64,000 nucleotides of DNA from Frateuria edaphi (GTDB taxonomy: Bacteria; Pseudomonadota; Gammaproteobacteria; Xanthomonadales; Rhodanobacteraceae). Positions 51,509 through 56,059 of the stretch are shown one piece after another; the first letter of the stretch is position 1; every line of letters begins with the position of its first letter. The notes beneath the pieces are model-generated. The model saw nothing but the letters and a program-made list of their open reading frames with translations. It was not told the DNA's origin and did no database searches. The position numbers and the translations under genes are program-made. The stretch lies in the NCBI RefSeq assembly GCF_021117405.1, contig NZ_CP088251.1, positions 3,676,501 through 3,740,500 on the forward strand, in the 5' to 3' direction.

Positions 51509-54500
51509 TTACACCGCCAGTCCGATTCCCCGCGCCTCGCTGCCGGGCCGACGCAGCAGCGCGTTGCGCCAGCGCTGCTGGGTGGCGCCATCGGCCTCCA
51601 GCAGGAACTGCGGCTTGTTCGCCACCAGCGCAGCCACAGGCACGCCGTCCTCGTACAGCACGCGGGTACCAGCCAGCGCCGGCAGCTTGTCGCCAGCCAG
51701 CACGGTGCCGACCAGGTTGAGCGGATCGCTGCCGCTCACGCACACCAGCTGCTGCGTGGCCTCCCGCTGGCGCACCGCGCGCAGGGCACCGACCGCTTCG
51801 GGCAGCGCGAACTGCTCGCCGACCAGTCCCTCGACAAAGCGCCCGCCGCGGATCTCGCCGCGCGCTTCCAGTCGGTGGTACACGCGCAGCAATTCGCGCC
51901 AGGAAGGCAGCCACGGGGCTTCTCGTTCGAGCAGTTTCCAGAACACCACGCCGTAGCGGCGAAGCAGAACACGTGCAACGTGTTCCGCTTCATCCGAATC
52001 AAGCCGGCGCGAAGCGCTTCCTTGGCCTCCTCTCCCTTCCGGGGAGGAGATTGAGGTGAGAGGTCGATCTTGCGGGGAGTTTCCAACGAAGCCTCCCGTG
52101 CGCCCCGACCCCTCATCCGATCCCGCAGGGGCCGCCTTTTCCCCGGAAGGGAGAAGGGATGGGCGCGCCAGCGACCAGCGTCCCGCATCCTCGATCTCGC
52201 TCAACGCATGCCGCCGCGCGCGCCGGTGTGGACGCGAGTCGCGCTTGGCCGCGGGCAGAAGCAGTGCGCGCAGCCCGGCAAAGCTGTCGGCGGTGACCCG
52301 GCCCGCGGCGACCAGCTCGCCCAGCGCGTTCTCCAGTTCGGTGCGCAACAGGTGCGTGGCATCGAGCAGTTCGTCGAAGAACAGCGCGCCGTGGCTGGAC
52401 AGTGCGTCGGCCACGGCCTGGGCGCGCGAGGAGAGCAGCTGGTCCTGCGGCTGCTCGCCCGCCGCCATAGACGTCCAGATGGCCATCTGCCGGCGTGGCA
52501 GCAGCACGATCGGCGTGGCGCGAACGGGGCCGGCGCTGCCGCCACCGGCACGCAGGCGGTTCCAGCCGAAGCGGCCGGCGCGGCACAGTTCGTCCAGCCA
52601 GCGGCTGGCGTAGTCGCCCACGCGCGAGGGCAGCACCTCGGTTTCCCAGGCGCCGGCGGCGGCTTCGTAGCCTTCGAGCTGGTGCAGGGTGGCGATCAGG
52701 CCGTCGGGGCCTTCCAGCCGCGTGTCGGGCGTCAGGTGCTGCCAGTCGGCGAAGAAGCGGATCAGGTCGCGGCGGCTGACCGGCTCGATCTCGCGGCGCA
52801 GGCGGCCGATGGTGTAGCGGTGGATGCGCGCGAGAAGATGGCGCTCGCACCACTCGATGGCCGGCGCGTCCGGGGTGAAGCGGCCCTGCATGACGTAGCC
52901 TTCCGACTGCAGGCGCAGCAGGGCCGGTTCGATATCGGCCGGATCGACGGCGAGCGAGGCGGCGATCGATGCGGGCGTAGTCGGACCCAGGCCGCCCAGG
53001 CGGCGGCGGACCAGTTCGAGCAGGGCGTCGTCGCGCGTCCAGGTCTGGGCGGCGTAGTCGGGCGGGGCGCTGATGGGCGGATGCCGCGGCGCGTCGGCGT
53101 GGATGGCCTGCCACAGGGGCAAGGCCTCCGCCGCGACCCACACGCCACTGTTCCTTCTCTCCTGCGGTGAGAAGGTGGCCCCGGCGGGGGCGGATGAGGG
53201 GTCGGGGTTCGCGGGGAGCTCCAGACGCGTCGCGCGATGGTGTCTGGCGAGCGCTCCCAGGCGCTCCTGCCAACCGGTGTTGGCGGCTACTTCGGCATCC
53301 GTGACAAACCCGAGCAGCGTGAGCGCCTCATGCATTTCGTCGCCGCTGCGCACCTGCGGCCAGGCCTCCTCGCGCACGGCGGCGATCGCCGCCGGATCGA
53401 GCCGGCCAAGGTCGTCGGCATCCTCGGCGTTCCAGCGGCGGTTCTGCACCGCCTGCGTGCGGCGCTCCTCCAGTGGCGCGTCGTCGAGATACGCGTACGG
53501 CGCGGCGGTGAGCACTTCGGAGGCGAGCGGGCTGGGACCGGTGAGGTCGCGTGCGACCACCGTGATCGCGCCGGCCTCGAAGCCGCGCAGGATGCGCAGC
53601 AAGCCGTCGACATCCATCGCCTCGCGCAGGCAGTCGTGCAGGGTCTGGTTGACCAGCGGGTGGTCGGGAATCTGCCGCTCGCCGACGATGTTCTCCAGGC
53701 AGGCGACCTGGTCGGGGAAGACGGTGGCGAGCAGGTCCTCGCTCTTCATGCGCTGGATCTGCGGCGGGGTCTTCTTGCCGCCGGTGTAGCGTGGCAGCGC
53801 CAGCGCGGTGACGGCATTCCAGCGCCAGCGCGCGGGGAACAGGGGCGCATCCAGCAGCGCCTGCACCAGCACGTGCTCGGCCGAGTTCGAATGCAGGTAA
53901 CGGGAGACTTCCTCCAGCGGGAAGCTGTGGCTGGTCGAGAGCGACAGCACGATGGCGTCCTCGGTCGCCGCCGCCTGCAGTTCGAAGTTGAACTGGCGGC
54001 AGAAGCGCTTGCGCAGCGCCAGGCCCCAGGCGCGGTTGATGCGGCTGCCGAAGGGCGTGTGGATCACCAGCTGGGTGCCGCCCGATTCGTCGAAGAAGCG
54101 CTCGAACACGATCGTGTGCTGGGTCGGCAGCACGCCGAGCGCGACCTTGGCGCGGTGCAGATAGTCGGCCAGCTGCTGCGCGGCCGCCTCGCCCATGCCG
54201 AGCGTCGAGCGCAGCCACGCCAGTGCCGCGGCAATGCCGCCGGCGTCGAGGAGATGGGCGATCTCCTCGCGCAGGCGCGCCACGCCGAAGGAGAGTTCAT
54301 CGCTGCGCCCTGGCGCTTCGCCCAGCCAGAACGGAATGCTCGGCGGCGCGCCGTGCGCGTCTTCCACGCGCAGGCGGTCGCGCTCCACGCGCAGGATGCG
54401 GTAGCTGGTATTGCCGAGCTGGAACACGTCGCCGGCCAGGCTCTCGACCGCGAAGTCCTCGTTGACCGAACCGATGATGGTGTTCTGCGGTTCCATCACC

Positions 54501-56059
54501 ACCAGGTAATCGGCCGTGTCCGGGATGGTGCCGCCGGAAGTCACCGCGGTCAGCCGCGCGTTGCGGCGCGCACGCAGCTGGCGATGCACGGCATCGCGGT
54601 GGATGTACGCGGCGCGTGCGCCGCGGCGGGTGCTGAAGCCTTCGGCGAGCATGCGCACGATGGCATCGAACTGCTCGCGCGGCAGCTCGCGATAGGGATG
54701 CGCGCCCCGCACCAGCGCGTACAGCGCGTCCTCGTCCCATTCCTGGCTGGCCACCTCGGCGACGATCTGTTGCGCGAGTACGTCCAGCGGCTGCACCGGC
54801 TGCACCAGCGCATCGAGTTCGCCGCGGCGCACGCAGTCGAGCAGCGCGGCGCATTCGAGCAGGTCGTCGCGGCTGGTCGGGAACAATCGCGCCTTGGGGG
54901 TGCCGTTGACCGCGTGGCCGGAACGTCCGGCACGCTGCAGGAAGGCAGCGATCGAGCGCGGCGAGGCGAGCTGGCAGACCAGGTCCACATCGCCGATGTC
55001 GATGCCCAGCTCCAGCGATGCGGTGGCGACCAGCAGTTTCAGTTCGCCGCGCTTGAGGCGCTGCTCGGCGTCGAGTCGCAGTTCCTTGGCCAGGCTGCCG
55101 TGGTGTGCGGCCACCGCCTCCTTGCCCAACCGCTCGGCCAGGTGACGCGCGGCGCGCTCGGCCATGCGGCGGGTGTTGACGAAGACCAGCGTGGTGCGGT
55201 GCTCGCGGGCGAGCTGGGCGAGGCGGTCGTAGACGGTGCCCCAACTGTCGTTGGACATCACCGCTTCGAGCGCCACGGGCGGGACTTCGATGGCGAGATC
55301 GCGCGGGCGGGTGTGGCCCACATCCACAATCGCGCAGCGCGTTGCTTCCTTCTCCCCTTCAGGGAGAACGTGGCCCGAAGGGTCGGGTGAGGCAGCGCGC
55401 GCTCCGACCAGGAACCGCGCCACCTCTTCGATCGGCTTCTGTGTCGCCGACAACCCGATCCGCTGCAGCGGCCGCTGGCACAATGACTCCAGCCGCTCCA
55501 GCGACAAGGCCAGGTGCGTGCCACGCTTGGAATTGGCCAGCGCATGGATCTCGTCCACGATCACCGCGCGCGTGCTCTTGAGCATCTCCCGTCCGGACGC
55601 CGAGCCCAGCAGCACGTACAGCGATTCGGGCGTGGTGACCAGGATGTGCGGGCTCACCTTGCGCATCAGCGCGCGGGCGGCTTGCGGCGTGTCGCCGGTT
55701 CGCACGGCGGTGCGGATCGCCACGTCCGGCAATCCTTCCGCCTCGAGCTCGGCTCGAATGCCTTCCAGCGGTGCTTCGAGATTGATGTGGATGTCGTTGG
55801 ACAGTGCTTTCAGCGGCGAGACGTAGACCACCCGTGTCTCGTCCGGCAACGCGCCGCCATTGGCCACGCCCTCGCGTACCAGCGCGTCGATGGCGGCGAG
55901 GAAGGCGGTCAGCGTCTTGCCCGAACCGGTCGGCGCGGCGACCAGCGTGTGGCGACCCGCGTGGATGTTCGGCCACGCGCCCACCTGCGCCGCGGTGGGC
56001 GCCGGGAAGCTGCGCTGGAACCAGCGCGCGACGGCAGGATGGAAGTGTTCGAGCGGCAT
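51509..56059 (-). CDS. lhr: Large ATP-dependent helicase Lhr (long form) carrying in-frame repeat insertions
   Basis: A 1,516-residue superfamily 2 DNA/RNA helicase; Lhr acts in DNA repair. The N-terminal core has Walker A APTGSGKT (43-49), [20 protein letters not shown], the DEIH box in [15 protein letters not shown] (about 165-175) and motif VI-like [20 protein letters not shown]. The winged-helix and Lhr-specific C-terminal regions follow ([20 protein letters not shown], then [20 protein letters not shown]). Four copies of the local palindromic repeat are translated within it (features at 52006, 52097, 53151 and 55346), at about residues 222-238, 948-969, 1299-1321 and 1328-1351. The frame is preserved throughout. 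It ends convergently with the SnoaL-like gene. Confidence 0.93.
52006..52074. repeat. Palindromic repeat (family B) inside lhr, copy 1
   Basis: A 69-bp unit almost identical to the intergenic element 12126-12193: same GGCGCGAAGCGC start, CTCTCCC/GGGGAGG hairpin, ATTGAGGTGAG and ATCTTGCG end. In the lhr frame it encodes [20 protein letters not shown]. Confidence 0.9.
52097..52162. repeat. Palindromic repeat (family B) inside lhr, copy 2
   Basis: Contains CCCCGACCCCTCATCCGATC and TTCCCCGGAAGGGAGAAGGG. It lies in opposite orientation to copies 3 and 4 and 22 bases from copy 1. In the lhr frame it encodes [20 protein letters not shown]. Confidence 0.85.
53151..53216. repeat. Palindromic repeat (family B) inside lhr, copy 3
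   Basis: CCTTCTCTCCTGCGGTGAGA, then AGGTGGCCCCGGCGGGGGCG, GATGAGGGGTCGGGG. In the lhr frame it encodes [20 protein letters not shown], beginning with the same PDPS as copy 4. Confidence 0.85.
55346..55393. repeat. Palindromic repeat (family B) inside lhr, copy 4
   Basis: CCTTCTCCCCTTCAGGGAGA, then ACGTGGCCCGAAGGGTCGGG and TGAGG. In the lhr frame it encodes [15 protein letters not shown], between helicase motifs in the N-terminal core. Confidence 0.85.

Follow-up and report, generated by a model that had tools for sequence, protein, structure and literature searches.

Palindromic repeats translated in frame recur at four sites of the repair helicase Lhr in Frateuria and related bacteria

The gene lhr of Frateuria edaphi lies in a 64,000-nucleotide stretch of contig NZ_CP088251.1 (positions 3,676,501 to 3,740,500, hereafter the window; the Frateuria genome is one contig of 3.77 Mb) and contains, translated in frame, short palindromic elements of a kind otherwise dispersed mostly between genes. 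In Lhr proteins of other species such repeats fill the same four sites, termed S1 to S4, and recurrent, tolerated in-frame insertion at these sites is the probable explanation. The gene product is a 1516-residue DNA-repair helicase, as judged from its Pfam domains (DEAD, Helicase_C, WH_Lhr, DEAD_assoc, WH3_Lhr and WH4_Lhr) and from its nearest solved sequences, 7LHL and 5V9X. A preliminary description of the window had reported four palindromic repeats inside lhr. Four hairpin half-elements are indeed present, in three places and in both orientations, and the frame is open throughout its 1516 codons, which include both peptides quoted at the time; the observation has proved larger than first reported. 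They are not, however, four separate insertions, because the elements at 52006-52074 and 52097-52162 face each other head to head as the arms of a single doublet, which leaves three insertion sites. The elements at 55346-55393 (S1) and 53151-53216 (S3) appear to be what is left of doublets after in-frame loss of the other arm, since congeners have both arms at S1 and S3.

The comparison covered 112 Lhr proteins, namely 44 from 61 genomes (17 with no, short or weak matches being left out by choice) together with 80 named loci, of which 68 were new and 12 duplicates. Named loci include those of F. terrea (L079), Frateuria sp. STR12 (L087) and F. flava (L129); two genomes, G013 and G019, group with other genera though named Frateuria, and contig ends truncate the genes of G004, G019 and G032 and of some of the named loci. 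Of 5198 inserted residues (runs of at least 6 amino acids, summed over the alignment), 4849 lie at the four sites. S1 follows the motif RFLVG where the DEAD domain ends, and S2, S3 and S4 are found near core columns 604, 948 and 1285; linkers of at least 28 amino acids occupy S1, S2, S3 and S4 in 54, 17, 24 and 42 of the proteins, respectively.

Six repeat types were searched for in these genes. Profiles C, A and B describe one related group of CTCTCCC/CTTCTCCC hairpins, and three single sequences were added: T, a clearly unrelated GTAG-type doublet; W, a hairpin of the CCCTCCCC kind with a possible distant likeness to C; and N, which is a hairpin found within the loop of C. Although the profiles were derived from lhr copies, the searches ran over whole genes, and all 288 matches fell inside the four sites, spread over 50 genes and 103 combinations of gene and site. 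The GTAG-type doublet matches at S3 of four genes (G022, L106, L113 and L115) and at S2 of another (L123), and a further unrelated hairpin was recognised by eye at S3 of G035. Of 136 long linkers, 78 fold strongly (z below -2), compared with 5 of the same number of control stretches taken from these genes; the median z is -3.5 in the 88 repeat-bearing linkers, -0.8 in the 48 without a match and about 0 in the controls. The strongly folding match-free linkers of G028, G034, G035 and L113 are probably unmodelled repeats, and most match-free linkers of Burkholderia and Pseudoxanthomonas look ordinary.

Differing repeat types in neighbouring species show that the sites have undergone repeated turnover: insert length and type vary between close relatives, and many relatives have no repeats. 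When the orthologue alignment suggested in the preliminary description was carried out, the sampled distant families (G038, G040, G043, G046, G049, G051, G053 and G058, and Burkholderia/Paraburkholderia) showed no repeat match at the four sites, some of them having other long linkers. As separate observations, the Lhr of Pseudoxanthomonas koreensis (L155) has a tandem expansion of the pentapeptide PGAAI at S1, and a GGCGCCATGGATGGCGCC-like hairpin is nested in the main-repeat loop of Lhr inserts in G011, G026, L084, L090, L102, L107 and others, which makes them repeats within repeats.

The inserts are related to the dispersed repeats at the DNA level. The copy at 52006-52074, described earlier as nearly identical to the element at 12126-12193, does match it, but at 86-87% identity over about 70 nt, so that the wording was a little strong; the pair (58 nt, 88%) nevertheless has the top identity among the best 20 of at least 60 direct-repeat families, and the longest inverted repeat joins the elements at 52097 and 53151 (68 nt, 79%). 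The intergenic position claimed for 12126-12193 is borne out by our gene finder, which places called genes at 11298-12104 (plus strand) and 12292-13203 (minus strand). A whole-genome search with the 52006 element returned five places including itself (E 4.7e-29 to 1.1e-4), and a covariance model built from 28 lhr elements (R1) found at least 103 places at E up to 0.001 among the 150 candidates scored out of 1200, merging into at least 74 clusters. The 74 comprise 66 intergenic clusters, 6 intragenic ones and 2 at gene edges, in a genome of which 86% was called coding by the same gene finder; within lhr the model detects the S4 doublet only, the B-type arms at S1 and S3 falling below the list. 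Five congeners have from 122 to at least 149 R1 matches each, and 18 of 41 genomes have none. Single-sequence queries (464 kb) had first suggested that the element is near-absent outside lhr, an impression overturned by the profiles and the covariance model.

The spaced pairs on opposite strands, 16 in number, are all arranged head to head and measure 115-214 nt; three further clusters consist of two same-strand elements (390-424 nt overall), and two opposite-strand pairs are one palindrome read twice. Several doublets have, by eye, terminal inverted repeats with ends like TTTGCTCCC...GGGAGCAAA, and no conserved internal sequence was detected, as the spacers gave no cross-matches at E 0.01 (15 of the 16 were long enough to match themselves). 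Special translatability of the element was considered and rejected: the share of open frames is 80% for 74 single elements between genes and 78% for control stretches, and 42% as against 44% for 14 intergenic doublets. A search of positions 51400-56200 for structured RNA (Rfam, E up to 1) gave a single match, MIR164 (E 0.68), which is far under the gathering score and lies outside the elements. A 51-nt match to the element (92%) was also noted in two unannotated Campylobacter phage records, MG065686.1 and MG065691.1, possibly through contamination.

That lhr is a hotspot, as had been proposed, is supported by its surroundings. In 79 named genomes, 68 clusters of types C, A and B lie in 0.356 Mb of lhr as against 4 in 0.712 Mb of neighbouring DNA, a 34-fold higher density of the main family despite a laxer threshold for the flanks; a single plain consensus with a cut-off of 15 bits gives counts of 30 and 0. 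The insertion process is nonetheless not special to lhr, because five other genes of this genome have translated copies. The earlier comparison with the in-frame palindromes of Rickettsia is supported as well. The six genes with internal copies are lhr, hrpA, uvrD, an ABC-F gene, lpd and trhO, and all are read through in frame. For UvrD (25 of 31 genomes aligned), repeat peptides occur near core position 477 in six congeneric genomes (one arm only in G004) and in G011 and G017, other residues in G007, G009, G013 and G018, and no insert of at least 8 residues in the remaining 13. ABC-F proteins (20 of 31 genomes aligned) have repeat peptides in six congeneric genomes (cut by a contig end in G005) and in G011; HrpA (30 of 41 aligned) has inserts at core 634-671 and, at core 273, the peptide AHPVRDRG, taken for a GTAG-type remnant from its similarity at the peptide level only. 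The uvrD, hrpA and ABC-F inserts are missing from many orthologues. Many Lpd orthologues align unbroken over residues 1 to 615, so that this linker is not clearly an insertion, and the trhO repeat sits in a C-terminal extension. Beside these, UvrD of G003 and G013 (L306 and L308) has a further in-frame insert near core 240, of a different repeat type (peptides like GIGNRESGIG), and HrpA of G022 and G024 (L175 and L180) shows an in-frame tandem repeat expansion at core 915 with units like VRVPRAQDAQERPLDMD.

Selection acts very differently on the core of Lhr and on the sites. For eight pairs drawn from five Frateuria genes, the ratio of nonsynonymous to synonymous substitution (dN/dS) is 0.06-0.11 over 1404 core codons and 0.57-1.14 over the 90-175 hard-to-align site codons of each pair: the core is under strong purifying selection and the site codons are near neutral. 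The 70 full matches to profile C are read in plus phases 0, 1 and 2 in 9, 29 and 2 cases and in the minus phases in 12, 6 and 12, an unevenness that may reflect shared descent, and the 41 matches to B use five of the six combinations of orientation and phase. The use of all phases and the site-codon ratios fit tolerance and speak against a selected peptide, though the site alignments are poor. Two AlphaFold models (49 rows each) cover residues 1-1000 with a modest mean predicted local distance difference test (pLDDT) score of 74 and residues 855-1516 with a mean of 84. The filled sites S1, S3 and S4 are predicted to be disordered and to lie between ordered parts, with pLDDT of about 48-50 in blocks 221-240 at S1, a mostly unstructured stretch at S3 that the C-terminal model places between its strands 89-93 and 118-122, and pLDDT below 50 for residues 1312-1350 (458-496 of that model) at S4. 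The C-terminal model matches 7LHL (E 7.6e-22), although the overall superposition is poor (TM score 0.44), and AlkX/AlkZ glycosylases match as well.

Near-neutral site codons beside a constrained core therefore point to recurrent tolerated insertion. The elements would be short and non-autonomous, often two-hairpin, head-to-head doublets with a variable spacer, dispersed in Frateuria and related genomes presumably by transposition; most copies lie between genes, and genic ones occur where the frame is kept and a linker is hit. Four Lhr linkers have been filled repeatedly by the main family and by unrelated repeats, the translated repeat DNA now forming those stretches, probably as largely neutral filler that later shrinks, expands or is replaced. 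Several points weigh against this account. Only 5 of the 17 long linkers at S2 have a matched repeat, and S2, empty in this genome, lies within a predicted helix (587-620). The 34-fold excess is not obviously explained by tolerance alone, as other proteins have linkers too. Parsimony gives 20, 5, 13 and 14 changes of detected presence at S1, S2, S3 and S4 (FastTree tree of 111 rows with the site columns removed, 34 of 108 inner branches weak), but their total of 52 is not a strict insertion count, since gains and losses are not separated and decayed copies are scored absent. The site-codon ratios depend on few codons that are hard to align. Inspection by eye of 16 doublets and of 13 groups of filled and empty sites gave no clear target-site duplication, and no exact empty site was seen in the filled/empty comparisons, filled sites often replacing the original linker.

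The same excess, and the occupation of identical sites by unrelated repeat types, would be expected if the elements or their machinery preferred four places in lhr through sequence, single-strandedness or repair coupling, with targeting outweighing tolerance; this is unlikely in our view, since site-sharing repeats have different ends (CTCTCCC type and GTAG type), three of the four sites are predicted to be unstructured where filled, and the 13 filled/empty groups revealed no common target or duplication by eye. The domestication of the repeats as surface loops, put forward in the preliminary description, fares worse. The gene stays intact, and repeat remnants persist at S1, S3 and S4 in all five near-complete genes of genus group g1 (G000, G001, G002, G003 and G005), but functional loops are hard to reconcile with near-neutral site codons, with all six phases of C, with 52 changes of presence and with relatives that differ in type, frame and length or have no repeats, and we regard this explanation as improbable.

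Very little probability attaches to the idea that proline-, serine- and glycine-rich linkers in GC-rich coding DNA merely resemble repeats by convergence. The 48 of 136 long linkers without a repeat match would agree with it, though 12 of them nevertheless fold with z below -2; for the repeat-bearing linkers such chance similarity is already refuted by DNA-level matches to intergenic copies, hairpins, the doublet layout and unusual loop variants held in common with intergenic copies. It is hardly credible that lhr is a decaying gene gathering insertions: the frame is unbroken in 79 of the 80 named loci, a few of these being truncated at contig ends, and the core dN/dS contradicts decay. The exception, in a metagenome-assembled genome of a proteobacterium (L130), has lhr split into two open reading frames. 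A broader and more tentative proposal, which may hold but which we do not favour, is that Lhr of Frateuria, Dyella and Rhodanobacter is a convergent landing pad, four linkers of which unrelated palindromes preferentially colonise via targeting or via selection for long flexible linkers.

Table 1. Features of the window discussed in the text (aa, amino acids).
Feature	Position	Strand	Description
lhr	51509..56059	minus	1516-aa Lhr DNA-repair helicase, host of the translated repeats (domains and nearest solved sequences)
S1 insert	55346..55393	minus	B-type arm, aa 223-238, just past the DEAD domain; left arm of congeners absent
S2 site	54215..54280	minus	empty in this genome; filled by a matched repeat in 5 of the 112 genes compared
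S3 insert	53151..53216	minus	B-type arm, aa 948-970, between two predicted strands; left arm absent
S4 insert, first arm	52097..52162	minus	B type, aa 1300-1321
S4 insert, second arm	52006..52074	minus	A type, head to head with 52097-52162
Intergenic copy of A-type element	12126..12193	plus	
Further copy	15239..15283	minus	model R1, E 3.3e-6; touches called gene 15283-15945 (minus)

Head-to-head hairpin doublets with a variable spacer are known from REPINs and from repetitive extragenic palindromes (REPs) mobilised by REP-associated tyrosine transposases (RAYTs). The Frateuria doublets have the same layout, but no GTAG tag was seen at the hairpin foot of the A, B and C elements; some relatives do have GTAG-type doublets at Lhr sites. 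RAYT matches were found in 32 of 41 genomes at E up to 0.001, 17 of them above the curated cut-off, the Frateuria genome itself having one below it. In 59 kb of sequence from 14 RAYT regions, drawn from 8 genomes, no R1 match was obtained at E up to 0.01, and G011 has at least 149 R1 matches yet no RAYT match; a RAYT as mobiliser of the main family is accordingly not supported. Other hairpins occur in three of four inspected RAYT regions, the fourth, that of the genome itself (L282), showing none of note. Those next to RAYT genes resemble CGTAGGGTGGGCTTCAGCCCAC in L287 and L289 and GTAGGAGCCCACTCGTGGGCGAT in L283 and are separate GTAG-type families.

The phenomenon is of a known kind. Di Nocera and colleagues describe REPs in frame inside genes, often as dimers; many of these genes serve DNA synthesis and repair, among them those of UvrD/REP helicase and of RNA helicases; in recB of two Xanthomonas species different REPs occupy about one site, and linkers and loops are proposed as tolerant places (Di Nocera and colleagues, 2013; PMC3733652). 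The Frateuria repeats likewise lie within functional genes, in linkers or loops (structure being examined for Lhr), but neither the GTAG nor the CGTC tag has been seen in the main family, and four sites of one gene are recurrently filled over many species, a gene that the main text of that study does not name. No report of repeats in Lhr was found in the open-licence literature, although the supplements of PMC3733652 could still hold lhr. Rickettsia palindromic elements (RPEs) are also translated in frame inside unrelated conserved genes, but according to a review of miniature inverted-repeat transposable elements (MITEs) they encode a conserved peptide (PMC10969869), whereas the Frateuria family uses all six combinations of orientation and phase and its peptides vary, in a host that is not an intracellular Rickettsia. 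Terminal inverted repeats recall MITEs, from which the doublets differ in that no internal sequence was seen to be conserved among copies. Small mobile sequences in enterobacterial genes resemble them in description as non-autonomous short repeats yielding new peptide segments, with no hotspot protein apparent in that account (PMC2759123). As far as these sources go, what is new beside RPEs and REPs in repair genes is that a single protein has four sites of recurrent insertion in many species.

Lhr thus offers many natural experiments on mobile palindromes becoming protein, with four sites, varied repeats and frames, and repeat-free close relatives in a single protein, by which the old question raised by RPEs and by REPs in repair genes, whether tolerance, targeting or function prevails, becomes testable. 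For annotation it follows that peptides such as PSPLRGEGWGEG in genomes of the Frateuria group are translated repeats and not protein motifs. If the landing-pad proposal were true, one repair helicase would serve as a continuous recorder of repeat activity.

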